From positions 1 through 24,045 of IMG/VR virus record IMGVR_UViG_3300017769_000125: a stretch of 24,045 bases of DNA. One strand, written 5' to 3'. Under the pieces are notes generated by a model. It had not been told where the DNA came from. It searched no databases and saw only the letters and a program-made list of their open reading frames with translations. Shown one piece after another: positions 3,379 to 20,938 of the stretch; positions within the stretch are counted from its first letter, which is position 1; every line of letters begins with the position of its first letter. Origin of the DNA: a virus. Made by a program: the position numbers and the translations under genes.

Positions 3379-3421
3379 GGATGAGACAGAGCAAAGGTAA
3401 GGCGCTATCAGGCCTGCCGGG

Positions 3422-3451
3422 ACTATACCCTCTATCGCAGCGCTCGAACAA
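3422..3451 (-). promoter_or_regulatory. Possible promoter for the ligase-like gene
   Basis: On the minus strand TTGTTC (complement of 3446-3451) and TATAGT (complement of 3422-3427) are 18 bases apart, with a predicted start near 3413 and a ~35-base leader. The -10 is good but the -35 is weak, and it lies partly inside the end of the preceding gene. Confidence 0.3.
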
Positions 3452-4250: not shown

Positions 4251-4308
4251 AAAACCAAGCGTGAGCAGGTCTGAGACAAGGGTAGCCAAAAGGCTTGAAA
4301 ACACTGAT

Positions 4309-4592
4309 GTTACGCCAGTTACGCACCGTTACGGTAGGCGTAACACCCGAAATCCACTGCAGCGCAGGGGTGTTGCGTTAGTTAGTTACGAAGTTACACT
4401 GATATATATATATAGTATATATAAGGGATATATCTATTTCTAGTAGTACATACATACTTACTACCTCTTACTTATTTATATATATATCTCTGTCCTCAGA
4501 AAACGTAACAACGTAACGGTTTTCCGACATCCCTTGCGCCCCAACGTGTTACAGCGTTTCCGGCGACGTAACAGGGCGTCACTTTTGTTACG
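4309..4592. repeat. GTTACG iteron cluster around AT-rich core: candidate replication origin
   Basis: This covers the 343-base gap between genes. Twelve copies of GTTAC(G/A) occur in 284 bases. Direct copies start at 4309, 4318, 4328, 4385, 4393, 4548 and 4587. Inverted copies (CGTAAC) start at 4339, 4504, 4512 and 4567 (eleven listed plus the near copy GTTGCG at 4372). Neighbouring copies are mostly 8-11 or ~20 bases apart, about one or two helical turns. Between the two clusters lies an almost pure A/T stretch (about 4399-4490, TATATA runs), a good unwinding element. An imperfect inverted repeat CGTAACACC/GGTGTTGCG (4339-4347 and 4370-4378) lies in the left cluster. The flanking gene encodes a P4-alpha-like primase-helicase, a family that binds such iterons. 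Confidence 0.65.
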
Positions 4593-4593
4593 G

Positions 4594-7089: not shown

Positions 7090-7349
7090 TTGCTAAGCAG
7101 TACAAATTGTTTGACGCGAGCTTTGTTGAGTAGCTTCTTGCGTTCGCGTGATTTACGAATGCGCTCAAGACGTTGTGGGAATTCCTTCCATGCTCGGTCG
7201 AGGAGAGTCTGCTTGAAGGTGTGATCTAATTTTTCAAGGTCTACAGACTTGTCACCTGTCAAGTAGTAGTACATTAGATCTTCTGTCAGCCAGGTCTCAA
7301 GTTCTTTGAGGAACTTGTCCTTGACGCGCTTTTGGAAGTCAGTCTTCAT
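7086..7349 (-). CDS. Small basic helical protein
   Basis: The 87-residue product (MKTDFQKRVKDKFLKELETWL...) is highly charged and helical, with a strongly basic C-terminal third (ERIRKSRERKKLLNKARVKQ) that could contact nucleic acid. It overlaps the RHH gene upstream by 11 bases and the primase-helicase gene downstream by 4 (ATGA), so all three are translationally coupled. No known domain was recognised. Its position invites a role as an accessory factor for the primase-helicase, but that is inference from location only. Confidence 0.65.
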   Translation of the reverse strand: MKTDFQKRVKDKFLKELETWLTEDLMYYYLTGDKSVDLEKLDHTFKQTLLDRAWKEFPQRLERIRKSRERKKLLNKARVKQFVLLSK

Positions 7350-7494
7350 CAGGCCTCATTGCTAAGGCGATTAGCTGACGAACAAAGGCTGACCGAGAGA
7401 TGGTGAGTGCTTGGGCCTGCTGGTCTAGCCAGTCGATATGTGGCTGTGGGATGTCGAGGGTTATGGTGCGGCGTGACGCCCGCTCAGGCTGCAT
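7339..7494 (-). CDS. Ribbon-helix-helix (CopG/Arc-like) DNA-binding protein
   Basis: A 51-residue protein, too short for many ORF finders. After MQPERAS comes RRTITLDIPQPHIDWLDQQA, then QALTISRSAFVRQLIALAM. That is a short beta-strand with alternating residues followed by two helices with 'SRSAFVRQLI', the standard ribbon-helix-helix layout. Such dimers bind operators and often repress their own operon. It lies between the VRR-NUC gene and the replication genes, so an autoregulator of this operon is a fair inference. The ATG at 7494 is the only in-frame start after the TAA at 7537-7539, which is in the same frame. It overlaps the next gene by 11 bases. Confidence 0.75.
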   Translation of the reverse strand: MQPERASRRTITLDIPQPHIDWLDQQAQALTISRSAFVRQLIALAMRPDED

Positions 7495-7536
7495 GGAAAG
7501 CGCTGGGGTTTCGCTGGGGAAGACTGACGGTAGCCG

Positions 7537-7887
7537 TTATCCAAGAATGCGCAAGGCGTCTTGCAAGGATCTTGCGATGGCGCTGATGCCACCGGCCTTG
7601 CTGACAGCTTTTAGCCAATAGCTTTGCGCTGCAGTGGGTTTGCCTGAAGGGGTCTTCACTTCGAGACTTACAAACTGGGCAATGGTGGTGCCCACCATGT
7701 CAGGTGTAATTGTGACTGTCTTCCAGCCAACCAGATCAGCTGACCCTTTAGCGAGGCCAAACTGAACTGGGCGACCAGTGCGGGGATCAGGTAACTGGCC
7801 GACTTGATTCCTAAATAAGCGCACATCATCGCGAGTGCCAAGGCCCAGGCGAATCTCCTGCTGGATTTTGGTCTCGACATTTGCCAT
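7537..7887 (-). CDS. VRR-NUC domain nuclease
   Basis: The 116-residue protein matches the stand-alone VRR-NUC family (PD-(D/E)XK superfamily) along its whole length. It has the N-terminal helix with Glu (ETKIQQEI, residues 5-12), LFRNQVGQL (24-32) and FGLAKGSADLVGW (43-55) with the catalytic-type Asp51. EVKT follows (76-79, Glu76 and Lys78), then a Gln-containing helix (TAAQSYWLKAV, Gln88) and the GGISAIARS end. Phage members are thought to cut branched or structured DNA. The ATG at 7887 heads the minus-strand replication operon. No strong promoter was seen in front of it; TTGAGC with TATGCT 19 bases apart is the best, weak, candidate. Confidence 0.88.
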   Translation of the reverse strand: MANVETKIQQEIRLGLGTRDDVRLFRNQVGQLPDPRTGRPVQFGLAKGSADLVGWKTVTITPDMVGTTIAQFVSLEVKTPSGKPTAAQSYWLKAVSKAGGISAIARSLQDALRILG

Positions 7888-7906
7888 GCAATCAGCATAA
7901 GGGGGG

Positions 7907-7936
7907 TTGACGGATCCAGCTCAAGTGCTCTATGAC
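7907..7936 (+). promoter_or_regulatory. Possible promoter for the 8125-9273 unit
   Basis: TTGACG (7907-7912) and TATGAC (7931-7936) are separated by 18 bases. Transcription would start near 7943, giving a leader of about 180 bases before the ATG at 8125. The -35 matches five of six, the -10 four of six. Confidence 0.4.
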
Positions 7937-7940
7937 GCTC

Positions 7941-8103
7941 ATGCGGGCTTAAGCCTGCTCAACTCCGAGCACCGCATCTCTTTGCTTAGCGCATCGGTTC
8001 ACGTCCAATTGTTTTTACGCTGCTCTGTACTTATCTTTTCTCTTTAGAGCAATTCCCCGCCTTCTTCTGCCTTCGTCCGCCGGTCACGACTAAACCGGCT
8101 TTT
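7941..8103 (+). promoter_or_regulatory. Structured 5' leader with terminator-like hairpin
   Basis: At the start of the predicted leader, ATGCGG (7941-7946) pairs with CCGCAT (7972-7977). Inside, TGCTC (7956-7960) pairs with GAGCA (7967-7971) and a small GCTTAAGC palindrome sits at 7947-7954, forming a compact three-way-junction shape. Near the end, GCCGGT (8079-8084) pairs with ACCGGC (8094-8099) and is followed by four T, like a weak terminator, 21 bases before the start codon. The arrangement resembles a leader with an attenuator. No known riboswitch class was recognised. Confidence 0.35.
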
Positions 8104-8124
8104 ACAAATTATTGGAGTTAATCC

Positions 8125-8769
8125 ATGTCAATCCGCACTTTGCAAGTGACCGTAAATGGCACTGCAGGTCTTCTTTGCTCAAACGTTGCCTATTCAGACC
8201 CTCTTGGCGAATTCCAGCCAATGAAGGCATTTTTTACAGACAAAAAAGGTAAAGCCAAGACCGAAGGAGTTCACCGAGCAGTCCGAACTCTTGATTGGCT
8301 TTTCAGTGGTTATTGGCGCAATGAGGGCACTGTTGCGGTCGATGAGGCTGAAAATGCTGTCGGCTTTGAGGACTTTGCTGATCCCTACCTTCCAGGCGCT
8401 AATTTTCAGCGTTGCTTAAGGAATGCTGCTACTAAGTGGAAGCTAGGCAAGGACACCCTCCGCGCAATTGTTGTCACTAACAATCCAGACATCGATTACG
8501 ACGGTCCCAAAGATGCTGTTGAGATGTTTAACAGCCGTTCTCCCAAGTTTCAGCTTTGCAGCTTCACCGGTCGGGGTGTTTGGATCAATCGCCTTTACAT
8601 TCCCGATTGGTCAGCTCAGTTTGAATTGACATTGGATGACGAGATCATGGGGACTGATCAACTTCGGAGGATCGCAAACATGGCTGGCAAGTCTGAAGGC
8701 CTTGGGACTTGGCGGCCGAGGTATGGACGTTTTCAGGTGACTAATATCTCTGAAGTCGAGGAGGTTTGA
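8125..8769 (+). CDS. Phage protein of unknown function, terminal WRPRYGRF motif
   Basis: The 214-residue protein has the layout of a widespread unannotated phage family. The N-terminus has a '..LLCSNVAYSDPLG..' strand, and a middle segment reads YLPGANFQRCLRNAATKWKL. YDGPKDAVEMF comes about two-thirds along, and the C-terminus ends in a Gly-rich helix followed by GLGTWRPRYGRFQV. I know this pattern from many siphophages, but its function is not established to my knowledge. Its strand-rich character with a late Gly-rich loop is compatible with a nucleic-acid-binding fold, which is speculation. GGAG lies eight bases before the ATG. A structured leader precedes it, and the next gene starts 3 bases after its stop. 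Confidence 0.75.
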   Translation: MSIRTLQVTVNGTAGLLCSNVAYSDPLGEFQPMKAFFTDKKGKAKTEGVHRAVRTLDWLFSGYWRNEGTVAVDEAENAVGFEDFADPYLPGANFQRCLRNAATKWKLGKDTLRAIVVTNNPDIDYDGPKDAVEMFNSRSPKFQLCSFTGRGVWINRLYIPDWSAQFELTLDDEIMGTDQLRRIANMAGKSEGLGTWRPRYGRFQVTNISEVEEV

Positions 8770-8772
8770 TTT

Positions 8773-9273
8773 ATGGCAAATCGAAAGCCAAAGGATCTGC
8801 CTCTTGAGGTCGCTGGCATTGATTGGCGAGCCTTGAAGAAGGGCGACAGCATTACTGCTGAGAAAGTCAACGAGATGTGGGACATTCTTTTCGCTCAAAA
8901 CCGCAAGAAGGATCAGCAGTTTGTCTCGGTCAATGTCAAGGAGTGGCTTGATTCCGCTCTCAAGTCAATTGGCAAAGAGATGGTGCTTCGCGAGTCCAAG
9001 GGCATACTTATTGTTCTCACGGATGAGCAGGCAGTTGGCTATTTGGAAGCACAAGCTAATCAAGGCTTGAGGAAGCACAAGAACAACACTAGGAGGATGT
9101 TCACTGCTATTGATTCAAGCAACTTAAGCCAGCATCAACGTGACCAGTTGAATTCAAATCAGGCGAAACATGCTTTGATTTCCAGTTCTGCTGAGGGCGC
9201 TAAAAAGCAGGCTATGTCTTTAATCAAGCAGGGAGCAAAGCTTCCAAAGCTGAAACCACCAGAAGAGGATTGA
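8773..9273 (+). CDS. Hypothetical protein, partner of the upstream gene
   Basis: The 166-residue basic protein is without recognised domains. The first half contains a strand-helix pattern (FVSVNVKEWLDSALKSIGKE, then KGILIVLTDEQAVGYLEAQ). The second half is a Lys/Asn/Gln-rich helical region (LRKHKNNTRRMF...) ending in a Pro/Lys tail, KLPKLKPPEED. A strong AGGAGG eight bases before the ATG, inside the end of the upstream gene, and a 3-base gap make co-expression near certain. The stop codon is followed after two bases by the first of the twin hairpin elements. Basic composition suggests nucleic-acid contact (inference). Confidence 0.7.
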   Translation: MANRKPKDLPLEVAGIDWRALKKGDSITAEKVNEMWDILFAQNRKKDQQFVSVNVKEWLDSALKSIGKEMVLRESKGILIVLTDEQAVGYLEAQANQGLRKHKNNTRRMFTAIDSSNLSQHQRDQLNSNQAKHALISSSAEGAKKQAMSLIKQGAKLPKLKPPEED

Positions 9274-9275
9274 TG

Positions 9276-9439
9276 CCTGGGCAATGTCAATAAGCCCCAG
9301 GACGTCGAAGTGATGCGACTCAGGACCCCCTGATGCTTCTCACTTCAATTCTATGCACCTTCTTGTCGTGCAGTGCCCTTCTGTTCTTTGCGACGCCACT
9401 TAACGCAATCGCTTGCTGGTTCCACGATCAAGAACCAGC
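9276..9439 (+). ncRNA. Two-hairpin structured element, copy A
   Basis: Hairpin 1 has arms CCTGGG (9276-9281) and CCCAGG (9296-9301) with the 14-base loop CAATGTCAATAAGC. Hairpin 2 has arms GCTGGTTC (9415-9422) and GAACCAGC (9432-9439) with the 9-base loop CACGATCAA. Between them are GAAGTGA/TCACTTC (9307-9313/9340-9346) enclosing TCAGG/CCTGA (9320-9324/9329-9333), and TGCAC/GTGCA (9354-9358/9368-9372). Hairpin 2 is preceded by ATCGCTT and followed by a ten-base spacer and eight T (9449-9456). Copy B repeats both loops with compensated stems. The coding strand of the RNA, if any, is not proven; plus is assumed from the genes upstream. Confidence 0.6.
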
Positions 9440-9455
9440 TCATAAGTATTTTTTT

Positions 9456-9576
9456 TCTAGGCAACGTCAATAAGTCCTAGACCGTTGCTTCTTTCGGCGT
9501 TTCGGCCCAAAACAGCTCTATTCTGCCTGCAGCGCCTCCTAGCCATCGCTTTCCAGTTCCACGATTAAGAACTGGA
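9456..9576 (+). ncRNA. Two-hairpin structured element, copy B
   Basis: Hairpin 1 has arms TCTAGG (9456-9461) and CCTAGA (9476-9481) with loop CAACGTCAATAAGT. Hairpin 2 has arms TCCAGTTC (9552-9559) and GAACTGGA (9569-9576) with loop CACGATTAA, preceded by ATCGCTT as in copy A. Compared with copy A, two of six pairs in hairpin 1 and three of eight in hairpin 2 differ, each by a complete base-pair swap, while the loops are nearly identical. The spacer between hairpins is shorter (70 against 113 bases) and different. Together the copies fill the 305-base gap between two convergent genes. Confidence 0.6.
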
Positions 9577-9578
9577 CC

Positions 9579-10943
9579 TCAATACTTTCTCCCATAGAAG
9601 ATCTTGTAAGCCCAGCCGGGCTTGTAGCCTTTCTTTTTGGCGAGTGCGAGAAGTTCAGGCAGGGTTCGCGCCTTGCCTTGTTCTTTGCGTTTTTCGCGGC
9701 GCTCAATTGCGTCTTGCCGGCGCATTTCTTTGAGTTCGCCTTCGCGTTGTGTTAGCTGACGCTTTGGTTTAACCGGGAAGATAAAGCCACAACATGGACA
9801 GGCGGGTTGTGGCTTGAAGGCAGCAAAGCATTGTGGACATTGCCGCACTGACGGTGCAGGCTCATCGTTTCTCTTGCGTTTTTTGCTGTCAAGCGACCAA
9901 TCCCGGAGGTCATCGACGAAACCATGCCTAACAGTACTGCCGACGTGGTCAAGAACAATTGCGATCTTGCCCGCCTGCGGTCTGAGGATCCTGCCGACTT
10001 GTTGGAGGTAGAGAGATTCTGATTGGGTCGGGCGGAGCAGGATTGCACAAGAGACTGCTGGGACATCGGTTCCTTCAGAGACGACATCAACGGAGCAAAG
10101 AATTTGCGTTCGGCCATCAGCCAGCCCTGAAATTGCATCGTCACGCTCTTCCATTGGCATATCGCCTGTGACGAGCCTGGCGCGATAGCCTGCAGATTGA
10201 AATGATTGGCAGACAGATTTGGCGTGAGCTACTGAGCAGCAGAAAGCAATAGCAGGTAAACCATCAGCGCGTAGCCTGAAAGTATGAACGGCAGAACCAG
10301 TAATTGTGGGGCGATCCATCGCCTCAGAAAGCTGATCATTGGCGTAGTCACCTGCTCTTGTTTTTACCTTGCTTAGGTCGGCTAGGACAGGTGGTGCGAA
10401 AACACGATGAGGTGATAAGAACCCAGACTCGACCAGCTCTGCGACGGAAGGTCCTGACACTAGGGCCGAGAACCTTAATCCAAGCCCTTCGCCGGACAGA
10501 CGACATGGCGTTGCGGTGACGCCGATATGAATAGCGCCCGAAAAATGGTTGAGAATTTTGTCCCATGAACCGGCGACAGCATGGTGCGCTTCATCGATTA
10601 TCACCAGAGCGGGGTCAATTTTGATTTTGTCTAGGCGACGTACCAAGGTTTGTACAGAAGCGATTTGAATCTGGCCGTAGGTAGGCGGGAAGCCTGCAGC
10701 AATGATCCCGTGATCGACGCCAATGGCCTTGAGTTTGTTTGATGCTTGAGTGATTAGCTCACGCCTGTGGACAAGGATGAGGGTTGAGTTTCCTTTGGCT
10801 GCAGCGGCTTTGGCGATTTCTACAAAGACCACGGTCTTGCCGGCGCCTGTTGGGAGGACAAGAAGCGCTGATCTCTTACCACTGCGCACTACAGCACGCA
10901 AGCCCTCAATGGCTGCTACTTGATACTGCCTAAGACGGACCAT
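9579..10943 (-). CDS. Superfamily 2 DEAD/DEAH-box helicase (UvsW/SSL2-like)
   Basis: A 454-residue SF2 helicase: Q-motif-like RLRQYQ at the start, Walker A PTGAGKT (31-37), motif Ia LILVHRREL (55-63), DEAH (117-120), TAT (143-145), and in the second RecA domain SEGTDVPAVSCAILL (289-303) and QQVGRILR (314-321). After the helicase core come a four-cysteine zinc ribbon (CPQC 369-372, CPCC 382-385) and a very basic tail (~395-454). The family unwinds branched DNA such as D-loops and is common beside phage recombination genes. It is transcribed divergently from the exonuclease gene, 56 bases apart. The start is the ATG at 10943. Confidence 0.92.
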   Translation of the reverse strand: MVRLRQYQVAAIEGLRAVVRSGKRSALLVLPTGAGKTVVFVEIAKAAAAKGNSTLILVHRRELITQASNKLKAIGVDHGIIAAGFPPTYGQIQIASVQTLVRRLDKIKIDPALVIIDEAHHAVAGSWDKILNHFSGAIHIGVTATPCRLSGEGLGLRFSALVSGPSVAELVESGFLSPHRVFAPPVLADLSKVKTRAGDYANDQLSEAMDRPTITGSAVHTFRLRADGLPAIAFCCSVAHAKSVCQSFQSAGYRARLVTGDMPMEERDDAISGLADGRTQILCSVDVVSEGTDVPAVSCAILLRPTQSESLYLQQVGRILRPQAGKIAIVLDHVGSTVRHGFVDDLRDWSLDSKKRKRNDEPAPSVRQCPQCFAAFKPQPACPCCGFIFPVKPKRQLTQREGELKEMRRQDAIERREKRKEQGKARTLPELLALAKKKGYKPGWAYKIFYGRKY

Positions 10944-10947
10944 GGAG

Positions 10948-10976
10948 TTGCATGAAGCAGGTCTAGGCTATAGGAT
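10948..10976 (+). promoter_or_regulatory. Possible promoter for the recombination operon
   Basis: In the 56-base divergent gap, TTGCAT (10948-10953) and TAGGAT (10971-10976) are 17 bases apart on the plus strand. Transcription would begin near 10982, 18 bases before the ATG at 11000. Both elements are imperfect, but the spacing and position are right. Confidence 0.35.
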
Positions 10977-10999
10977 GCGACAGTCAAGCACAAGACCTT

Positions 11000-11836
11000 A
11001 TGCCTATTCGGGACTTATCCAATGCCCGCTACCACTCTCACTCGGCGATTTCAAATTCAGACTTGGGAGCTGCTGCGCAGTCTGGCCAAGCTTTTTACGA
11101 CAAAAAATTTGGCCCAAAACGTGAAAGCACTAAGGCTTTCGATGTTGGAACTTGCTTTCATTCTCTTGTGTTACCTGGCGAGCAGCTTTCACAAGTTGCA
11201 GCTGTTCGCCCAGAAGGTCTTGATGGTCGCACTAAAGCCGGCAAGGCGTTTGCAGCAGAGAATGCAGACAAGATCATTTTGAGCACTGCAGAAAAGCAAC
11301 AGCTTGATCTAATGATTGAAAGCGTTCAGAGACACCCTGCTGCTTCTGAGCTGCTTAAGTTAAAAGGCAAGGCTGAGGTCAGTATGTTTGGGGTTGACCC
11401 TGAGACTGAACTTCAAATAAAGGCTAGACCTGATTATTTATTGGATGACAGGTCGCTGATCCTCGACATCAAGACGACTGCTGACGCATCGCCGCGTGGC
11501 TTCCAACGTAGCTTTGCTAACTATCGGTATTGGGTGCAAAGCGCTTGGTACTTATGGATTGCTGAGATGGTGACAGGCAGACGGCCTGATGCTTTTATTT
11601 TTATCTGCGTAGAAAAACAGCGGCCGTATCACACGGCTGTGTACATCGCAGATGACCAGTCAATTGAGCTGGGTATTCAGGAAGCACGCAGGAATCTTAT
11701 GGACATTGCCAAGTGGCAAAACTGCAAAATGTTTCCTGGCTATAGCAGTAAGGCAGAGATGATGTCTTTGCCGCAGTGGATGCTTCCAAAAGAAGACGGC
11801 ACTCCTGCTGACCACCAACCTATTGAGCTTTACTGA
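11000..11836 (+). CDS. RecE/exodeoxyribonuclease VIII-like PD-(D/E)XK nuclease
   Basis: This 278-residue protein has the signature of the RecE C-terminal/DUF3799 exonuclease family. It starts with YHSHSAISNSDL (11-22), followed by FDVGTCFHSLVLPG (47-60) with His54, then a helical region. KARPDYLL (141-148) carries Asp145, ILDIKTT (154-160) has the Asp156/Lys158 core, and YRYWVQSAWYL (175-185) includes Gln180. Such enzymes resect one strand of duplex ends to give 3' tails for an annealing protein. A RecT-like gene lies three genes downstream, making a RecE/RecT-type pair. The stop overlaps the next start (TGATG). Confidence 0.9.
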   Translation: MPIRDLSNARYHSHSAISNSDLGAAAQSGQAFYDKKFGPKRESTKAFDVGTCFHSLVLPGEQLSQVAAVRPEGLDGRTKAGKAFAAENADKIILSTAEKQQLDLMIESVQRHPAASELLKLKGKAEVSMFGVDPETELQIKARPDYLLDDRSLILDIKTTADASPRGFQRSFANYRYWVQSAWYLWIAEMVTGRRPDAFIFICVEKQRPYHTAVYIADDQSIELGIQEARRNLMDIAKWQNCKMFPGYSSKAEMMSLPQWMLPKEDGTPADHQPIELY

Positions 11837-12087
11837 TGGAGAAAGTTACTGAGTTCGAATTGATGCAGGCTCTTTGGGACTGCAGTTGCTATGTAAGAGA
11901 TCTTCCTACAAAAGAAGAAACTCGTGCAATTAAGGATGTAGTCGGTGAACTCATGTCCAGGTGGATTGCGCAACAGCATTTAAGCAATGAGGAAGGTTTA
12001 GATCTTTTTAAAAAAGTTCTTGAGCCTGGACCTCTTTGCTTAGCTGCAAAAAAAGCATTGCGCAGCAGATACTTTGACAAAAGTTAA
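11836..12087 (+). CDS. Small helical hypothetical protein
   Basis: The 83-residue product begins MEKVTEFELMQALWDCSCYV. It is mainly helical and acidic in the first part, with a basic C-terminus (KKALRSRYFDKS). Its ATG overlaps the exonuclease stop by one base, and the next small gene starts directly after its TAA. No domain was recognised. The position between exonuclease and annealing protein suggests an accessory role in the recombination operon, without direct evidence. Confidence 0.6.
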   Translation: MEKVTEFELMQALWDCSCYVRDLPTKEETRAIKDVVGELMSRWIAQQHLSNEEGLDLFKKVLEPGPLCLAAKKALRSRYFDKS

Positions 12088-12255
12088 ATGCCCGGCGCAC
12101 AGTATGGGACCACGCAGCCCTTAGACAACATCGCTGCAGCCAAGGCCCGTGCTAAGGCTGCATTGAATGAGAAAAACCCAAAGCTCACAAGACTTGAGCG
12201 TGCTTTTTACGAGCTTTACAAGCGACACGGGCATCCTCCCCCCAAAGAGGTGTAA
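12088..12255 (+). CDS. Small basic protein, 55 residues
   Basis: A short gene begins with ATG immediately after the TAA of the upstream gene and ends at the TAA at 12253-12255. The product starts MPGAQYGTTQPLDN, has an Ala/Lys-rich helix (IAAAKARAKAALNE) and then a basic amphipathic part (RLERAFYELYKRHGH) ending in PPPKEV. The abutting stop/start and the sensible amphipathic pattern support it. No family was recognised. It is too short for a 60-residue ORF cut-off. Confidence 0.55.
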   Translation: MPGAQYGTTQPLDNIAAAKARAKAALNEKNPKLTRLERAFYELYKRHGHPPPKEV

Positions 12256-12287
12256 GTCCCGAACTGTTCACACTATTTTTTTTACTC

Positions 12288-12536
12288 ATGTCTCGACCGA
12301 CTGGCACTAAGAACAAAACACGCATTGAGATGACTATGTCACCTTGGTACGCCGAGAAGCTTAAGGAGCTTCGTATTGACTCTGGCTTCGAAACAAATCA
12401 AGCGTTTGCAAATTGGCTGCTGAAAAACACTGTTCAAATTCTTTGCGGACAGCGCGATCCAGGCAGTGAGAGACTGAACGACTTGCGTTTACGAATGCAG
12501 CAAGCACTTCCTGCACCTGAGGCGATCAATGAGTGA
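12288..12536 (+). CDS. Small basic hypothetical protein
   Basis: The 82-residue protein starts MSRPTGTKNKTRIEMTMSPW. The first residues (RPTGTKNK) resemble the GRPxGSKNK stretch common at the start of phage DNA-binding proteins. After a short strand (TRIEMTMS) come two predicted helices (WYAEKLKELRIDSGF, QAFANWLLKNTVQIL), a layout compatible with a ribbon-helix-helix-like unit. Its end overlaps the RecT-like gene start by 8 bases (ATGAGTGA), so the two are coupled. A DNA-binding role is likely but unproven. Confidence 0.6.
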   Translation: MSRPTGTKNKTRIEMTMSPWYAEKLKELRIDSGFETNQAFANWLLKNTVQILCGQRDPGSERLNDLRLRMQQALPAPEAINE

Positions 12537-13188
12537 TCAATCAGCGCTGACGACAACGTCCGTGAAATCGGTTTACAGCAGCATCCAGTCATTTGAGTCT
12601 GCTCAGCGGATGGCCAAATCGCTCGCCGAAAGCGACATTGTGCCGACTTTGTATCGGGGCAAACTTGGCAACTGCATTGTGGCGATGGAAATCGCTAATC
12701 GAATGGGCATGTCAACTGTTCAGGTGATGCAAAACCTGAACATCATTCATGGTCGACCCTCATGGAGCAGTCAGTTCATTATTGGCTTAATCCAGGGCTG
12801 CGGCAGGTTTCTCGACTTCGATTATGTTGAGGCTGCTGACTCGTGTCAGTGCGTTGCTACGGCAAAAACCACTGGCAAGCAGGTCTCAGGGCCAAAGATC
12901 ACCATGGACATGGCTAAAAGGGAGGGCTGGACGAAAAACACCAAATGGAGCACGATGCCGCAAACTATGCTGCGGTATCGAGCTGCAAGCGCGTTCGGTC
13001 GCTTTCACATTCCTGATTTGATCCTTGGCATTCAAAGCGTTGAGGAGAACGAGGTGATTGATGCAGATGTTGAAGTAATTCAACCACCAGCTGCACAATC
13101 AGTGGCTGATGACCTGAACCAAAAGCTTGCCTCCATTAAAACCGAACCTGAACAGGTGCAGGATGACTTCGACGATTTTCTTGAATGA
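12529..13188 (+). CDS. RecT-family single-strand annealing protein
   Basis: The 219-residue protein carries the RecT core. AQRMAKSLAESDIVPTLYRG (about residues 26-45) leads into NCIVAMEIANRMGMSTVQVM (48-67) and NLNIIHGRPSWSSQFIIGLI (69-88), the best conserved block of this family. TMDMAKREGWTKNTKWSTMP and the MLRYRAASAFGRF helix (about 144-156) follow. The C-terminal ~50 residues are acidic and probably flexible. The family coats single strands and promotes annealing and strand invasion. It pairs functionally with the exonuclease at 11000. It is slightly short against typical RecT (~270). The ATG at 12529 overlaps the previous gene. Confidence 0.85.
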   Translation: MSDQSALTTTSVKSVYSSIQSFESAQRMAKSLAESDIVPTLYRGKLGNCIVAMEIANRMGMSTVQVMQNLNIIHGRPSWSSQFIIGLIQGCGRFLDFDYVEAADSCQCVATAKTTGKQVSGPKITMDMAKREGWTKNTKWSTMPQTMLRYRAASAFGRFHIPDLILGIQSVEENEVIDADVEVIQPPAAQSVADDLNQKLASIKTEPEQVQDDFDDFLE

Positions 13189-13348
13189 TAAGCAGCTGTC
13201 AGAACGCTGGCAGGTGCATCGACATACGTTGATTTCATGGCGTTCGGCGGGCATTGGTCCGCCTTACGTCAAGATCAACAATAAAGTGCTCTACAAGCTG
13301 GCCGAAGTAGAAGCATACGAACAGGCCAACACGTTCCCCAACAACTAA
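13163..13348 (+). CDS. Excisionase/MerR-like small HTH protein
   Basis: The product is 61 residues, mainly a winged helix-turn-helix of the excisionase/HTH_17 kind. LNDKQLSERWQVHRHTLISW forms the first two helices, and RSAGIGPPYVKINNKVLYKL is the typical wing, ending with a helix (AEVEAYEQANTF). Such proteins bind DNA as excisionases or small regulators. The ATG at 13163 lies within the end of the RecT gene (26-base overlap); a TTG at 13181 is an alternative. No integrase is visible in this window, so a regulator or DNA-architecture role is as likely as excision. Confidence 0.78.
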   Translation: MTSTIFLNDKQLSERWQVHRHTLISWRSAGIGPPYVKINNKVLYKLAEVEAYEQANTFPNN

Positions 13349-13351
13349 TCC

Positions 13352-13789
13352 ATGAAATTCGACGCCAAGTTTAACGTCTTCAAGAAAAATGCTGAGGACC
13401 ACCAGAAGCGATACAAAGATCGCTATGACCCAAACAAAGATTATCCGACTCATGGCGGCACGCTTGAGTTGACTGTCCCTGAGGCGCAACAACTTGCTGA
13501 GTATCTTATTTACTCGCAAGCTACAGACTTGCCTTTTAATGAATACAAACAAGGCAAGATTATTCAGATTGAAGTCGAAGGGTATGCTTCTGTATCTAAG
13601 AATAATCCGAACAATAAGTATTTAAGACTTGGCATGAAGCCAAGATGGTCCACGCTACAGGAAGCACAAAAGGTCAAGGAAGCGCACCTATCAAAAACCC
13701 AGCAGCCGCAGGTCCAACAGGAACCAGCAGCTAGCCTGGCTAAGGCCACTGATGGTGACGTTGTGACACCTGAGGACGACGTTTTCTGA
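13352..13789 (+). CDS. SSB-like protein with acidic C-terminal tail (tentative)
   Basis: A 145-residue protein. Residues ~1-100 are mixed alpha/beta with many Lys/Tyr/Asn (TLELTVPEAQQLAEYLIY, GKIIQIEVEGYASVS). Then comes a Gln/Pro/Ala-rich flexible linker (~110-130), and the chain ends PEDDVF. The combination of a globular N-terminus, a disordered Gln/Pro linker and an acidic tip ending in phenylalanine is the hallmark of single-strand DNA-binding proteins. It sits right after RecT and the HTH gene. I do not recognise a clear OB-fold signature, so SSB function is inference from tail and context. It starts 3 bases after the previous stop. Confidence 0.6.
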   Translation: MKFDAKFNVFKKNAEDHQKRYKDRYDPNKDYPTHGGTLELTVPEAQQLAEYLIYSQATDLPFNEYKQGKIIQIEVEGYASVSKNNPNNKYLRLGMKPRWSTLQEAQKVKEAHLSKTQQPQVQQEPAASLAKATDGDVVTPEDDVF

Positions 13790-13790
13790 C

Positions 13791-13982
13791 ATGGAAATAC
13801 CAGACTCTCCGACAAGGTTCATGCAGCAATGCGCAATTGACTCACTAGATAGCTTGCCTGGAGGGTCTGAGGTCTCCGTGCCAGTAGAACAGCTAAAGCA
13901 ATTGCTCCAAAATTATATGGATTTACTTGACACCGTACAAGACCTCCGTAATCTTTTGGATGAAAAGATCGAGAACCTTTGA
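13791..13982 (+). CDS. Small coiled-coil protein
   Basis: The 63-residue acidic protein starts MEIPDSPTRFMQQCAIDSLD. Its second half (VPVEQLKQLLQNYMDLLDTV, then QDLRNLLDEKIENL) has clear heptad leucines and should form a parallel coiled coil. The ATG follows the preceding TGA by one base. No catalytic or binding motif is visible. It belongs to the plus-strand early operon. It may be an oligomerising adaptor; there is no direct evidence. Confidence 0.6.
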   Translation: MEIPDSPTRFMQQCAIDSLDSLPGGSEVSVPVEQLKQLLQNYMDLLDTVQDLRNLLDEKIENL

Positions 13983-13998
13983 GTCGATTGGGTTACAG

Positions 13999-14202
13999 AT
14001 GTTGCGCTGGGGCAGCAAAAAGCCTATATGGGTTATTTCGCCGCCCAGCTGGGTTGTACAACATCTTGAGCCGCTGCCTAGGTGCTCTTTGGGCGATGAT
14101 TTATCGCCAGTCGGCAAGATTGGTGCATGGATGATCGAAAGGTCAAACCCACTTGCTAACATACAAAGGACCAATAACCTGATCAAGATTACGCTGCCAT
14201 GA
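13999..14202 (+). CDS. Small hypothetical protein
   Basis: This 67-residue frame begins at the ATG at 13999 (MLRWGSKKPIWVISPPSWVV). The frame is open further upstream but would then overlap the previous gene. It has a basic/aromatic N-terminus and an unremarkable rest, with no recognised domain. It fills the space between two better supported genes in the same direction, which is its main support. No Shine-Dalgarno is seen. Confidence is limited. Confidence 0.45.
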   Translation: MLRWGSKKPIWVISPPSWVVQHLEPLPRCSLGDDLSPVGKIGAWMIERSNPLANIQRTNNLIKITLP

Positions 14203-14243
14203 CCAACTTGTTGATGTACACTCAATTATCGTTTTAATTAGCT

Positions 14244-14618
14244 ATGGCGCCAACTTATGACAGCAAGGCCTTGGGGCAGGTTGTATCATTTGCAGACTTA
14301 AGTCGACTAGACAAAGTTAGTCTCAACATGTTGCAAGAAGAGCTGCAGATTGCTATTGAAAACATGCAGCTTAAAATCAACAAAGAAGTTGAGCAAGGGC
14401 CAGACCCTAACTGGCTGCATAGGATTCAATTCAAAAAGAAACTTTGCACGAACTTTTTAGAAAAAATTGAAATTGAGCAAAACTTTGACCGCGTTAAGTT
14501 TGAAGCTTTGCATTTGATGTACATACGCAATCGCCTTAAAACTTGTATTGGTCCACTAGAAGGTGAGAGGCTTTACCAAGATGCTAGGAATGCTGCTCTT
14601 GCTCATTTCAACAAATAA
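14244..14618 (+). CDS. Helical hypothetical protein
   Basis: The 124-residue, highly helical product (MAPTYDSKALGQVVSFADLS) has long stretches of charged and leucine residues (NMLQEELQIAIENMQLKINK; RIQFKKKLCTNFLEKIEIEQ). It looks like two or three long helices, possibly a coiled-coil hairpin. Its stop is immediately followed by the next start. No family was recognised. A weak promoter-like pair, TTGATG and TTAATT 17 bases apart, precedes the ATG. Confidence 0.65.
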   Translation: MAPTYDSKALGQVVSFADLSRLDKVSLNMLQEELQIAIENMQLKINKEVEQGPDPNWLHRIQFKKKLCTNFLEKIEIEQNFDRVKFEALHLMYIRNRLKTCIGPLEGERLYQDARNAALAHFNK

Positions 14619-14780
14619 ATGGACCAGGCGCTGCTGGCGACACTTGAAGAGATTTACAAGGGTCAAACCAACGTTGCAGTAAAAGCAATGGAGCATGACA
14701 TGACCCTGCAAGAGATGTGCCAACTCTTCAATGAGTACGTGAAAGAGCGCCCATTTGATATTGACAGTTACAAGGTATAA
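14619..14780 (+). CDS. Small acidic protein, 53 residues
   Basis: The short gene starts with ATG directly after the TAA of the upstream gene and ends at the TAA 14778-14780. The product (MDQALLATLEEIYKGQTNVA) is acidic and entirely helical by composition, with four methionines in the middle. The perfect stop/start abutment and the AAGG-rich end that serves the next gene support it. No homologue was recognised. It is below a 60-residue cut-off. Confidence 0.55.
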   Translation: MDQALLATLEEIYKGQTNVAVKAMEHDMTLQEMCQLFNEYVKERPFDIDSYKV

Positions 14781-14788
14781 GGTTGTGT

Positions 14789-15100
14789 ATGCCTTCTTTG
14801 CGCTATCACGCCGGTCGCATGGTCCTCCACCAAGAGGACGATCGATGGAAGGTGCGCATTAAAACCAAGGATGCGCGAGTCCTATATGGCCTTGAGTCAG
14901 AGGAGCTTGAAAATGCAGTGCTAGAAGCGGAGCAAATTTACGCTGACATCAAGGCCATCAACGTAGGCAAGCCTTTGTGTGCTGACTGCATCCACTGGGA
15001 GGCTATCAAGGCCCAGTGTGGGGTTGGTTGCCCTGAGGGCAGGATGACCGGCGGCAGTTTTGCTAAAGACTGCTCCTATTTTTGGTCAAAATCCACTTGA
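14789..15100 (+). CDS. Small protein with cysteine cluster (putative metal site)
   Basis: A 103-residue protein from the ATG at 14789, with AAGG seven bases upstream; a TTG six bases earlier is rejected. The first ~60 residues form a small alpha/beta part (RWKVRIKTKDARVLYGLESE). The last third carries CADCIHW, then AQCGVGC, then DCSYFW: five cysteines with spacing typical of small phage zinc- or iron-binding domains. A DNA- or RNA-binding role is likely for such domains, but no specific family was identified. Its end abuts the next gene. Confidence 0.65.
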   Translation: MPSLRYHAGRMVLHQEDDRWKVRIKTKDARVLYGLESEELENAVLEAEQIYADIKAINVGKPLCADCIHWEAIKAQCGVGCPEGRMTGGSFAKDCSYFWSKST

Positions 15101-15105
15101 ACTAC

Positions 15106-15279
15106 ATGTCTAAACGTTCTATTCAGAGGGTCAGGCTTCAGGGCCAATGGTATTGGCAGATCTGTTTCGCAGGCATGTGCCGTTATGAGCGTCATGACTG
15201 GCGTGCGGAACAACTACACGAGGCTGCTGGCCTGTACTACACAGATGCTTCAGCCCAAGCATCAAGCTCAGCAATATGA
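15106..15279 (+). CDS. Small basic hypothetical protein
   Basis: About 57 residues from the ATG at 15106 (MSKRSIQRVRLQGQWYWQIC), five bases after the previous stop. The N-terminus is basic and aromatic, the centre has CFAGMCRYERHDW, and the tail is Ala/Ser-rich. It is the last gene of the plus-strand early operon. Its last 43 bases lie antisense to the end of the minus-strand gene at 15237-15449, so the tail may be read only by default. No family was recognised. Confidence 0.5.
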   Translation: MSKRSIQRVRLQGQWYWQICFAGMCRYERHDWRAEQLHEAAGLYYTDASAQASSSAI

Positions 15280-15449
15280 CTGACTGCTTGTTTTAGAAGG
15301 ATTTTGTGCATCCATGCCTGTCTGGCCATGCCAGCACAGATGTCTTGAACAGTTTTTAGGTCTTTAACCTCGTAAATGCTTCGTATCGACTGCTCAAGAG
15401 CCAGCTCCTCCTCCAATGTCTGCTTGACGATCATCCAGTCCATGGTCAT
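15237..15449 (-). CDS. Small helical protein, last gene of the minus operon
   Basis: About 70 residues from the ATG at 15449 (MTMDWMIVKQTLEEELALEQ); the ATG at 15443 is an alternative, and the frame extends to 15512 without good support. The sequence SIRSIYEVKDLKTVQDICAG, MARQAWMHKILLKQAVSHIA is a run of amphipathic helices. The pattern 'EEELxLE...V..IC..MxRQ....LxxAVxHIxEL' is familiar to me from small cyanophage proteins of unknown function. It overlaps the upstream gene end and the plus-strand gene end. Confidence 0.6.
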   Translation of the reverse strand: MTMDWMIVKQTLEEELALEQSIRSIYEVKDLKTVQDICAGMARQAWMHKILLKQAVSHIAELDAWAEASV

Positions 15450-15636
15450 GCTCCAGTGACTGCAGAATGCGACGCTCGGAGGCGTAAGGCTCCCTAGCAC
15501 GCTTGTAGTCATGTATAGCGGGTACGAGCCACTCGTGCGGTGGCCAACAGTACTGCCAATTAATGGGCTGGAGACAGCCGATCACGACGGTCGTCCAAAA
15601 CGCGCTGACATTGCTCCAGAAGACAAACCAGCTCAT
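15394..15636 (-). CDS. Small membrane-associated protein (tentative)
   Basis: The 80-residue product starts at an ATG that overlaps the dCTP-deaminase-like stop (ATGA). Residues 3-31 (WFVFWSNVSAFWTTVVIGCL) are hydrophobic and Trp/Phe-rich, one likely membrane span. The rest is polar, with a Gly/Ala end (DIGGGAGS). It overlaps the downstream gene by about 56 bases, which is more than usual, so the last part may not be functional. Unknown function. It belongs with the other small membrane proteins of this operon. Confidence 0.5.
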   Translation of the reverse strand: MSWFVFWSNVSAFWTTVVIGCLQPINWQYCWPPHEWLVPAIHDYKRAREPYASERRILQSLEHDHGLDDRQADIGGGAGS

Positions 15637-16151
15637 GCGACGCTTGGCATAACGGTGAGGTGGCCGTTGTAATGGCCAACCTTTGCATAGCTTTGCAGAG
15701 GCACGTTACTCATGGCATGGAACACCATCTGACCAATTTTTAGGCCTGGATACAACGGCAAGGAGTGGTGGCGACGGTTGTTTTTTAATTCGAGCGTAAG
15801 TTTTGACCCATTCCAGCCTGGGTCGCACCAGCCAGCAACAGCGTGCTGATAGCCATCTCTTGCACGGCTTGACTTGAGCACAAATTGGCTGCTGACATCA
15901 TCTGGGAGATTGAACTGCTCAAGTGTCTCTGCCAGACAAAATTCATTAGGCAGTAGCCAGTAGGCATCTTCAAGAGTGCGATCTGAAATATCAATGCGCA
16001 ACAGCTCGCGCTGATCTGACACCTCCATCATGAGGTGATTTCCAAGGCGCAGGTCCAAGCTGGCTGGATTTAACAAGGATGCGTCGAACGGTGTAACCAT
16101 GTTGCTGCCAGTGCAGCGAGCCTTTATTTCCCAGTCACACAGGACAGCCAT
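15633..16151 (-). CDS. dCTP deaminase / dUTPase family protein
   Basis: 172 residues from the ATG at 16151; a longer frame would run through the peptidase gene. It has SLDLRLG (31-37), the signature block KSSRARDGY (93-101) with the substrate-binding Ser/Arg, then AGWCDPGWNGSKLTLELKN (106-124) with Glu121 as candidate catalytic residue, then IGQMVFH (139-145) and a flexible GHYNG end. This order matches dCTP deaminase (Dcd) and bifunctional Dcd-dUTPases, which lower dUTP and feed dTTP synthesis. A glutamate in this block favours deaminase over pure dUTPase. Length is slightly below typical Dcd (~190). It lies 22 bases after the peptidase gene. Confidence 0.85.
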   Translation of the reverse strand: MAVLCDWEIKARCTGSNMVTPFDASLLNPASLDLRLGNHLMMEVSDQRELLRIDISDRTLEDAYWLLPNEFCLAETLEQFNLPDDVSSQFVLKSSRARDGYQHAVAGWCDPGWNGSKLTLELKNNRRHHSLPLYPGLKIGQMVFHAMSNVPLQSYAKVGHYNGHLTVMPSVA

Positions 16152-16173
16152 GCTTAGGCAAAAATCCAGTGTA

Positions 16174-16872
16174 TTAGTTGTTGACGATGATTGCCCACCC
16201 TGAACTTGGGCCTTCAACCTGCCAGCGCTGGTGAAAGGCAGGACGACTGACACGGACATACTCGCCTGATTTCCTGCTGTTATGACCGCCTCTTTCCATG
16301 AGAGGGAGGCCCATTGGATCATGCATGATCCACTCGTCTCGGTTGAATCCCACAATGACACTCCAGTGCCCTAGGCCCATTGGCGGGTGACCTTGCAGCA
16401 TGTCACCGCGATGCAGCCATCCGACCATGACAGGTCTGCCTGCTGTTATTTCTTCCTCGATCAAGTCTGAGTCAGCATTTTGCGTGAAATCAACGTCTAA
16501 ACCCAATACACGCAAGGTCGTCACCTGTGCGTTGACTGAAGTCGTATCACCAAGCGTCTCGCGAATCTTGTTGTAGTAGTCATCACTGCTGACCCTGCCG
16601 TAGAAAGCGGCAACCATAGCCGCTGCACTAGAGAAACATTCCCTGTACCCACGTCCTGTCTCGTTATCGAGCTGGTGGTAGTAGGGAGCCCAAACCTGCT
16701 GCTCAATGCCGCTTGCCTTCCAAGCTTCGAACCACTCTGCGTCTTCATCCAATACGCTTTGCGGCAAGGACTCTTCAAGCTGTTTAACAGCAGCCAGCTG
16801 GTGGGGCGTACCACGGAAAAACTGAAAAAACGGCAAGAGTGTAAGGGCCACAGCGAGAAGTAGCCAGATCAA
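16174..16872 (-). CDS. Membrane-anchored C39-like cysteine peptidase
   Basis: The 232-residue protein has an N-terminal hydrophobic segment (residues 1-19, IWLLLAVALTLLPFFQFF), probably a membrane anchor. A papain-like C39-family domain follows: QLDN..YRECFSSAAAMV with catalytic-type Cys79 (67-87), GLGHWSVIVGF with His169 (166-176) and WIMHDPMG with Asp185. The gene starts at a TTG at 16872 that overlaps the upstream TGA (TTGA), with GAGG ten bases earlier. C39-like domains cut peptides or serve in lysis and peptide processing. I recall such proteins in marine cyanophages, but the role there is unknown. Confidence 0.82.
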   Translation of the reverse strand: MIWLLLAVALTLLPFFQFFRGTPHQLAAVKQLEESLPQSVLDEDAEWFEAWKASGIEQQVWAPYYHQLDNETGRGYRECFSSAAAMVAAFYGRVSSDDYYNKIRETLGDTTSVNAQVTTLRVLGLDVDFTQNADSDLIEEEITAGRPVMVGWLHRGDMLQGHPPMGLGHWSVIVGFNRDEWIMHDPMGLPLMERGGHNSRKSGEYVRVSRPAFHQRWQVEGPSSGWAIIVNN

Positions 16873-19843: not shown

Positions 19844-20141
19844 GAAGGCAGAACGGTTTGTTGCTGGTCAACTGTGGATCGAACGTTGCCGTAGACGCGA
19901 AGGCCCTGAAATCACTTACACCGTACTAAGCGGCAGGTCATCTCGGTTGTTTACAGATCACAAGATGATCCTGCGTTATGTCAAATGGCCAAAGGGCACG
20001 CCAACAGGTGATGCACTACGTGAATGGCTTGAGTCGTTTGAGCAGAAACCAGAAGTGATCGAATCTAAAATGGCGATTCAATCGGGAGGCCAGTCTTTAC
20101 CGGCAGTTCAGGCATTGCCTCATCAAGCAGTTCAGGCATAA
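19842..20141 (+). CDS. Small conserved-looking basic protein
   Basis: 99 residues from the ATG at 19842 (MKAERFVAGQLWIERCRRRE). The pattern continues with GPEITYTVLSGRSSRLFTDH and WPKGTPTGDALREWLESF, a compact strand-strand-helix unit that I recall from cyanophages and picocyanobacteria. The last ~25 residues are antisense to the gene at 20065-20319 and look like read-through tail. The start codon overlaps the divergent start of 19061-19843, so there is no room for a promoter between them. Function unknown. Confidence 0.68.
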   Translation: MKAERFVAGQLWIERCRRREGPEITYTVLSGRSSRLFTDHKMILRYVKWPKGTPTGDALREWLESFEQKPEVIESKMAIQSGGQSLPAVQALPHQAVQA

Positions 20142-20319
20142 CCTCGTCAATCTGACTAGGAACCATGTCAGTGACCATGTTCGTCAGCTCGCCTTGCAAC
20201 TGACTCATGTAATGCTTGGTGATTGAAGGAATGCGCGTGTAAAACACCACAACTCCAGCAAGCATCGCTCCAGACATCACGAAGGATGTGACGGACAGGA
20301 CGTTGAACAGCTTTTGCAC
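20065..20319 (-). CDS. Small single-span membrane protein
   Basis: 84 residues. An N-terminal span (LSVTSFVMSGAMLAGVVVFY, about residues 8-27) is followed by an extramembrane part, RIPSITKHYMSQLQGELTNM, and a repetitive Pro/Glu/Met tail (MPELLDEAMPELPVKTG). I recall this arrangement (membrane span, 'FYTxxPS', 'MPELP.KTG' tail) from marine cyanophages. The gene begins one base from the -35 box of the candidate ncRNA promoter on the other strand. Its 3' 77 bases are antisense to the plus-strand gene. Function unknown. Confidence 0.7.
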   Translation of the reverse strand: MQKLFNVLSVTSFVMSGAMLAGVVVFYTRIPSITKHYMSQLQGELTNMVTDMVPSQIDEVMPELLDEAMPELPVKTGLPIESPF

Positions 20320-20348
20320 TTGACCAAAGCGCAGGTCACAGTCATACT
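20320..20348 (+). promoter_or_regulatory. Promoter of the candidate ncRNA
   Basis: TTGACC (20320-20325) and CATACT (20343-20348) are separated by exactly 17 bases. Each matches the sigma-70 consensus at four or five of six. Transcription would begin about 20354, directly at the first hairpin of the candidate RNA. No plus-strand gene lies downstream before the terminator at 20474. Confidence 0.5.
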
Positions 20349-20350
20349 AG

Positions 20351-20498
20351 CCATACGCAAGCAGACCACCCCTGCGTAGGGAGTCCGTTACTGCGTTGCC
20401 AGCTTTGAACGCCCCTTAGCCGTGATGCAGGCTAAGTTAAAGTGGTCAACAACTCTGGCAAGCATCTCTTGAGAACCCCGTCCTAGGCGGGGTTTTCT
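20351..20498 (+). ncRNA. Candidate structured phage small RNA (~145 nt)
   Basis: Between promoter (20320-20348) and terminator (20474-20498) no reading frame is evident, but pairing is dense. P1 is CC-a-TACGCA (20351-20359) with TGCGTAGG (20373-20380). P2 is TGC-g-TTGCCAG (20392-20402) with CTGGCAAGCA (20455-20464), ten pairs with one bulge. Inside P2 are CTTT/AAAG (20403-20406/20439-20442) and the perfect 7-bp hairpin CTTAGCC/GGCTAAG (20415-20421/20430-20436) with an 8-base loop. P4 is the terminator. It matches no RNA family known to me. The region is not explained by the neighbouring genes, both of which are on the minus strand. Confidence 0.6.
20474..20498 (+). terminator. Rho-independent terminator of the candidate ncRNA
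   Basis: AACCCCG (20474-20480) pairs with CGGGGTT (20488-20494) over a 7-base loop, with a T-rich tail (TTTTCTT) on the plus strand. Read on the other strand the tail is poor, so it serves plus-strand transcription. Confidence 0.75.
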
Positions 20499-20504
20499 TG
20501 TAGG

Positions 20505-20535
20505 CATAAAAAACCCCCTGGTGAGGACAGGGGGC
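20505..20535 (-). terminator. Rho-independent terminator for the minus-strand late operon
   Basis: Arms CCCCCTG (20514-20520) and CAGGGGG (20528-20534) enclose a 7-base loop. On the minus strand they are followed by a run of six T. It lies about 26 bases after the stop of the barrel-protein gene. With the plus-strand terminator next to it, it forms a convergent terminator pair. Confidence 0.85.
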
Positions 20536-20560: not shown

Positions 20561-20938
20561 TCAGAAGTTGTACTTCACGCCAACCTTTGTGCCGTAGCTG
20601 ACGTCGTCGTCGCCAGTCATGAAACTGATTTCTCCATAGGCCCCAAACTGCTCGGTAGCTTGAACGCTTCCGCCAATTTTGCCAGACAGCTCAAACTCGC
20701 CGTCATCACCATCAGGCTGCACATAGGCAGGTCCACCTTGCAGGTAGAAACCATAAACGCCTTCACCACCCTCGTAACCGACATGAGCGTCAGTCACTGA
20801 TCCGTTGAAATCAGAACCGGTGAAACCAGCGTTGTTTTCAACGTTGACGTATGGGCCTGCTTGCGCGGTTGCAGACAGGCCAGCCAATGCAAGTGAACCA
20901 GCGAGAACACCAGAAACAATCAAGCTGTTGTTTTTCAT
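20561..20938 (-). CDS. Secreted outer-membrane beta-barrel-like protein
   Basis: The 125-residue protein starts with a signal peptide (MKNNSLIVSGVLAGSLALAG...ATAQAG, cut after AQA). The mature part is a series of alternating strands with Gly/Asp turns (YVNVENNAGFTGSDF, VYGFYLQGGPAYV, FELSGKIGGSVQ, GAYGEISFMTGDD, YGTKVGVKYNF). It ends in an aromatic strand with terminal Phe, the recognition signature for outer-membrane insertion. At ~100 mature residues only 6-8 strands fit, like a small OmpA/OmpX-type barrel. I recall similar proteins in cyanophages. Placing it in the host outer membrane is inference; it could affect superinfection or lysis. Confidence 0.75.
   Translation of the reverse strand: MKNNSLIVSGVLAGSLALAGLSATAQAGPYVNVENNAGFTGSDFNGSVTDAHVGYEGGEGVYGFYLQGGPAYVQPDGDDGEFELSGKIGGSVQATEQFGAYGEISFMTGDDDVSYGTKVGVKYNF

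Follow-up and report, generated by a model that had tools for sequence, protein, structure and literature searches.

A putative small RNA gene of cyanophages appears to be an optional, promoter- and terminator-framed mosaic of structured modules

The RNA unit and its neighbours

The window, by which we mean the whole stretch of DNA analysed, is a 24,045-bp virus record. Near its end, two minus-strand genes flank a plus-strand unit, and the features of this region are as follows.

20065..20319, minus strand: 84-aa gene, PHROG 568 named 'plasmid stability', a conserved neighbour of the unit in relatives
20320..20499, plus strand: whole RNA unit, comprising promoter, strongly folded non-coding stretch and intrinsic terminator
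20320..20348, plus strand: promoter TTGACC-17-CATACT, adjoining the 84-aa gene at its GTG start and divergent from it
20353..20355, plus strand: predicted transcription start, 5-7 nt past the -10 box, inferred from spacing; CATAC/CATGC is conserved in related units
20357..20394, plus strand: RNA module A, with GCA/TGC, GAC/GTC and CCC/GGG helices and a 7-nt loop; nhmmer matches in many units
20398..20466, plus strand: RNA module B, with GCCAG/CTGGC stem, TTG/CAA, CC/GG, hairpin CTTAGCC/GGCTAAG and a pseudoknot
20470 (approximate)..20499, plus strand: intrinsic terminator GAGAACCCCGTCCTAGGCGGGGTTTTCTT
20513..20535, minus strand: terminator belonging to the 125-aa gene; together with the 84-aa gene it brackets the inserted RNA unit
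20561..20938, minus strand: 125-aa gene, Phage_OMP (cyanophage outer-membrane-protein-like beta barrel)

The Phage_OMP family is found in 450 phage records, nearly all from Synechococcus or Prochlorococcus phages, and because it is nearly confined to these phages the host is probably a marine picocyanobacterium.

The promoter proposed in the initial annotation is present on the plus strand, with its -35 box TTGACC at 20320-20325 and, after 17 nt, its -10 box CATACT at 20343-20348. Taken alone, such a motif is at chance level (1 found, 1.0 expected in shuffles). Its support comes from conservation across related units and not from the match in the window itself: TTGACC/T-17-CAT[AG][CGT]T recurs at the same position in about ten of them. 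The first module starts almost immediately after the predicted transcription start. The 145-nt stretch that follows folds at -57.4 kcal/mol, against -43.4 ± 3.8 kcal/mol for dinucleotide shuffles (z of -3.65, none of 200 equal), and contains no notable start-to-stop reading frame. At its end the terminator, also anticipated on this strand, folds as a 12-bp hairpin with a T-rich tail; a simple terminator scan missed it because the stem extends into the T tract. The same terminator frame recurs in IMG/VR, where 57 stretches have it and almost all are units of this kind.

An optional insertion at two accessory slots

Relatives were collected through both flanking genes; the gap statistics refer to the contigs collected through the 84-aa gene alone. 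The first slot, between the 125-aa and 84-aa genes, measures 61-97 nt in 45 of 46 contigs and 248 nt in L083 (the same contig as L002), which carries the window's unit. Because the gap is compact in nearly all relatives, we regard the unit as an optional insertion. A second slot follows the 84-aa gene on its downstream side and faces a convergent gene of 104 aa; in 39 of 47 contigs it is no longer than 25 nt. Where it is enlarged it holds an RNA unit in L091, L093, L106 and L117, and a minimal version in L095. Nearly all units in this slot share the promoter TGTGCTATAAA, which has an extended -10. Other phages carry small ORFs at these places, of about 64 aa in the first slot (L008:4352-4629, L010:4352-4674) and of 71 aa in the second (L113/L114; seen in L064:4662-4923), with only a weak PHROG match, and for this reason both slots look like accessory-gene sites. 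At L052:4500-4600 the promoter is fused straight to half of a terminator and the RNA body is missing, probably as the remnant of a deletion.

These surroundings bear on whether the unit might be no more than a cis-acting element (a riboswitch, attenuator or transcription insulator) without any function in trans. An intergenic position and a terminator at the end would suit such an element, but the unit is served by a promoter of its own and is absent from most relatives, and both neighbours lie on the opposite strand, in the window as in both slots of the relatives. Riboswitch and attenuator readings fail because neither slot has a same-strand gene downstream, which makes cis-regulation unlikely; we consider the cis-acting reading largely refuted and would be most surprised if it were correct. 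The earlier proposal of a stand-alone small RNA gene opposite both of its neighbours is supported, with the proviso that transcription itself remains unproven.

Modules A and B

The window and contig L002 carry modules A and B. Module A is closed by pairing of TGC (20392-20394) with GCA (20357-20359). Over 27 instances, all 243 cells of its helices are paired, compared with a mean of 211 (maximum 223) in 2000 column shuffles, and one helix alternates among phages between GAC/GTC, AAG/CTT, CAC/GTG, GAG/CTC and GCG/CGC. We stress that this alignment was made by hand, as automatic alignment misplaced divergent members, and that it was fitted to the structure, so that the effect size is an upper bound; even so, we see little doubt that the predicted helices covary. 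Where present, this 38-nt hairpin is found once or as a tandem pair. Mimicry of an anticodon loop by its 7-nt loop was considered and rejected, since position 33 is not a constant U.

In module B, the stem GCCAG/CTGGC (20398-20402/20455-20459) and the hairpin CTTAGCC/GGCTAAG (20415-20421/20430-20436) both covary in homologues. The pairing extends to a pseudoknot between the loop GATGC (20424-20428) and the 3' tail GCATC (20462-20466), the loop GAUGC and tail GCAUC being complementary in 12 of 12 sequences; in L215 the pseudoknot is kept by a compensatory AAUGC/GCAUU, the single such change. Overall, 97.7% of 263 cells are paired, with 10 double-change pairs against 4.0 in shuffles, and the signal is lost when the partners are slid. 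Module B is non-coding, because its lengths vary in all three phases; with module B found in all three phases and the frames short, we rejected coding potential for the unit. Searches of about 0.75 Mb of other loci with covariance models of modules B and E turned up no additional copies. A weak B-like match within the 84-aa gene, antisense to it and on the plus strand of the window at 20187-20268 (17.8 bits, E of 0.58), was treated as chance.

The initial annotation had drawn much of this fold from the single sequence. Its inner hairpin CTTAGCC/GGCTAAG is real, whereas of its '10-pair stem' the GCCAG/CTGGC core covaries and the outer TGC/GCA pairs are not the conserved ones; its 5' hairpin exists but is best drawn as the three helices of module A. 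Disrupted stems in homologous phages would have refuted the structure; instead, the pairs of both modules are kept by compensatory changes.

A catalogue of structured modules

A single terminator pattern yielded the 57 IMG/VR stretches, whose upstream contents were then read and split by profile searches. In these related units a fixed promoter and a fixed terminator frame changing contents, and across about 60 IMG/VR contigs, all of one cyanophage group, we distinguish ten or more structured RNA modules that are unrelated to one another: A (38 nt), B (64-73 nt), C (56 nt), D (82-86 nt), E (about 100 nt), F (75 nt), G (165 nt), H (132 nt) and I (37 nt), with J/K and L also recurring. Pairs are kept through compensatory changes in modules A, B, D and E. 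For module E we counted 9 double-change pairs against 5.8 in shuffles (1/500), together with a loop/tail pseudoknot UAGCC/GGCUA that includes one G-U variant, and for module D the covariation score is 0.249 versus 0.156. Complementarity between loop and 3' tail can also be read in modules F, G/H and I, by inspection only. Structured inserts are seen within the loop of the terminator hairpin at L204:882-916 and L189:5747-5781, and the terminator loop can evidently host a module as well.

The nature of the conserved elements speaks to the possibility that the unit encodes a base-pairing small RNA whose module loops would pair with host or phage mRNAs and whose targets would be rewired by module exchange. 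Its size, promoter and terminator suit a trans-acting small RNA, and the loops of module A differ between phages. However, the best-conserved loops, those of B and E, are occupied by pseudoknots, no conserved single-stranded seed is seen, conservation resides mainly in helices and not in loops, and unrelated multi-helix domains exceed the needs of a seed; we consider this explanation unlikely.

No Rfam 15 family matched the window or 18 loci at the gathering cut-off (cmscan), and a relaxed cut-off applied to four units likewise gave no match, the best sub-threshold score in the window being sroD with 24.5 of 50 bits, mainly in the terminator. ARAGORN found no tRNA or tmRNA in the window and no tRNA in 13 unit-bearing loci, in agreement with the view that the unit is neither. 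These searches also bear on an RNA sponge, in which pseudoknotted domains would act as aptamers that soak up signalling molecules such as the cyclic nucleotides of CBASS, Pycsar or type III CRISPR. Modules D and E are riboswitch-like in complexity yet do not stand at a cis-regulatory place. Set against this, no aptamer family is matched in Rfam and very high RNA levels would be required, and we know of no RNA sponge of this kind; we give the explanation little credence.

A distant blastn search found no module in sequenced phage isolates or plasmids, and an open-access literature search returned no description of such a locus. The match H41 was a 24-nt chance match and was rejected, as was the single match of a module C 19-mer (the only query used against genome contigs) in a Bacteroidetes MAG, which has unlike flanks and agrees roughly with chance expectation. 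Tyrosine integrases were absent from ten contigs checked, which is weak evidence given that many are fragments; on this evidence we rejected a role in a prophage or in lysogeny.

Mosaic architecture of the units

Reading about 65 units as strings of modules, we found at least 23 multi-module strings, including AB, AC, AAC, AF, AI, EC, EA, EAF and ECF as well as DB, DBC, DBBI, DC, DCF, DA, DAA, DI and EE. Since some contigs are near-duplicates (L134/L181, L146/L163, L147/L174 and L162/L166), the unit counts are not all independent. Modules A, B and E are also duplicated in tandem. Order is constrained: within multi-module units, D comes first in 13 of 13 cases and E in 13 of 14 (the exception being the E-E tandem), B is first in none of 13, and F and I are always last. 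In L162/L166, F sits past a first terminator, in a second tandem unit. Spacers between modules are short and constant, with 2 nt between E and C in nine of nine cases, 4 nt between D and B, 3 nt between D and C and mostly 4 nt between A and C.

Two pairs of contigs capture the gain or loss of a whole module. L161 (AF) and L171 (EAF) have flanks that are 95.5% and 98.3% identical and differ by one whole module, with E cleanly inserted between the promoter and A in the alignment. Between L182 (DC) and L153 (DCF), whose flanks are 94.3% and 97.6% identical, the difference is exactly F. The mosaic evidence consists of metagenomic contigs only. Chimeric assembly is an unlikely source, as EC, AB, DBC and AC recur in independent contigs, which come from roughly 38 IMG data sets as judged by the numbers in the contig names. 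On these grounds we are highly confident of a mosaic RNA architecture framed by promoter and terminator, as far as contig comparison can establish it, and what the initial annotation saw appears to be a single example of a locus that is modular, mosaic and optional. Some phage contigs carry two RNA units, namely L154, where they lie at different intergenic places, L162/L166, and the contig of L164 and L221.

The modules could in principle be small selfish or recombinogenic DNA cassettes, that is, mobile structured elements whose expression is incidental. They do move as whole units, and module C stands alone after ssb in two contigs. Yet promoter and terminator are conserved around a changing body, module order is constrained, and covariation in A, B, D and E shows selection on the RNA, and we regard such cassettes as improbable. 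When modules A, B and C were scanned across IMG/VR, they were confined to the units of this group except for that lone module C, which directly follows the ssb stop codon without the unit's promoter or terminator (L218:5067-5121, L220:2103-2157); its position also fits a role as a 3'-UTR.

Comparison with known RNAs

Small stable non-coding RNAs, mostly of unknown function, occur in phages and picocyanobacteria, as exemplified by the Yfr family, CfrI and T4 stable RNAs C and D. To our knowledge, none of these is a mosaic of exchangeable domains, and the unit, which lacks an Rfam match, differs from them in this respect too.

The closest parallels come from RNAs that act on toxins or defence systems. 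Type III toxin-antitoxin antitoxins (ToxI, CptI, TenpI) consist of tandem pseudoknotted RNA repeats followed by a terminator and neutralise a ribonuclease (PMC5086642), and phage pseudo-ToxI evolves by repeat expansion and recombination, by which phages escape ToxIN (PMC3475682). The unit shares with these the promoter, the tandem structured or pseudoknotted RNA and the terminator; like the phage copy it has no toxin gene, and both kinds of locus are mosaic, changing by repeat gain or recombination (PMC3475682, PMC5086642). A pseudoknotted fold is met by modules B and E. In contrast, the antitoxins are tandem repeats of one motif of 34-50 nt (PMC12373285, PMC5086642), a criterion the unit does not meet: it mixes different modules, with tandem copies only of A, B and E and not in every case, and its modules range from 38 to 165 nt, those of 66-165 nt exceeding the known repeats. 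The Rfam scans gave no sequence match to these antitoxins, and no toxin gene accompanies the unit.

For AbiF, neutralisation in trans is achieved by an RNA (abiF motif RF03085, RCd22) in which a short hairpin motif stands in two tandem copies before a terminator (PMC12373285). Module A is likewise single or in tandem, but the unit has no RF03085 match (cmscan) and no abiF gene follows it. RNA anti-CRISPRs (Racr) are also phage non-coding RNAs, short, promoter-driven and acting by mimicry of CRISPR repeats (PMC10651486); each resembles one such repeat, whereas the modules here are larger, diverse and combined. Phage tRNAs, which defeat retrons and other defences (PMC11555353), offer a further case of a phage-made structured RNA used in counter-defence, although ARAGORN found no tRNA here. 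As the criteria of identical tandem repeats, the abiF model and the tRNA fold are unmet, we do not assign the unit to a known family.

A proposed function

The sequence comparison supports conserved transcription signals, covarying helices, combinatorial gain and loss of whole modules and optional presence in two slots. Expression, action in trans and protein binding are inferences, and for transcription during infection we have no expression data. Within these limits we hypothesize that phages carry the unit as an accessory gene, its product being a stable non-coding RNA made up of exchangeable domains that fold independently. The RNA would be transcribed during infection and act in trans, the latter being an inference from the lack of a following gene on its strand. 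Each domain would bind a host protein, in the likeliest case a ribonuclease (defence or toxin) or another RNA-binding defence factor, and inactivate it as a decoy or RNA-antitoxin mimic; by recombination, phages would re-assort the domains to match the defences of their hosts. We favour decoy or antitoxin-mimic domains because whole modules that come and go rapidly at accessory slots are what an arms race would produce. We hold this proposal, in which protein-binding domains are exchanged within a stable RNA that acts in trans, most likely as an anti-defence decoy or antitoxin mimic, only tentatively, its function being inferred and the chances of its being right somewhat below even. The stronger form, in which every one of the at least ten domains has a separate target among the defence and toxin proteins of the host, which it neutralises, and the domains are shuffled within one transcript, much as integrons shuffle gene cassettes, is possible but doubtful. 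Counting against decoys are the absence of any Rfam family match (the library includes abiF RF03085), the absence of copies in isolates and plasmids, and the lone module C after ssb.

Another possibility is a generic host-takeover RNA, a stabiliser or a binder of RNases or ribosomes, which would keep RNase E, RNase J or some other RNA-binding housekeeping protein occupied. The structured 5' start, the 3' tails locked by pseudoknots and the terminator hairpin would make for a long-lived competitor, but a single target would not obviously select ten unrelated, re-assorting domains, and we think there is only a small chance that this accounts for the units.

If the domains are decoys, as we tentatively prefer, each would serve directly as a probe for a defence protein of marine Synechococcus that is still unidentified, and a host's defences would be predictable from the modules its phage carries. 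Even without a known function, the units represent about ten new structured RNA families, with natural pairs that differ by whole-module deletion and with rules of module order that can be tested. Phage proteins are well known to evolve as mosaics; in these units it is entire RNA domains, complete with their helices and pseudoknots, that appear to be inserted, deleted, duplicated and rearranged within a single small transcript.

Elsewhere in the window, positions 2617-16361 encode a primase-helicase nearest to that of Synechococcus phage S-H1 (53.5%), as well as a ResIII helicase, a DUF3799 PD-(D/E)XK nuclease, a weak RecT match, a dCTP deaminase and an NAD-ligase adenylation domain. This recombination set might drive the exchange of modules.
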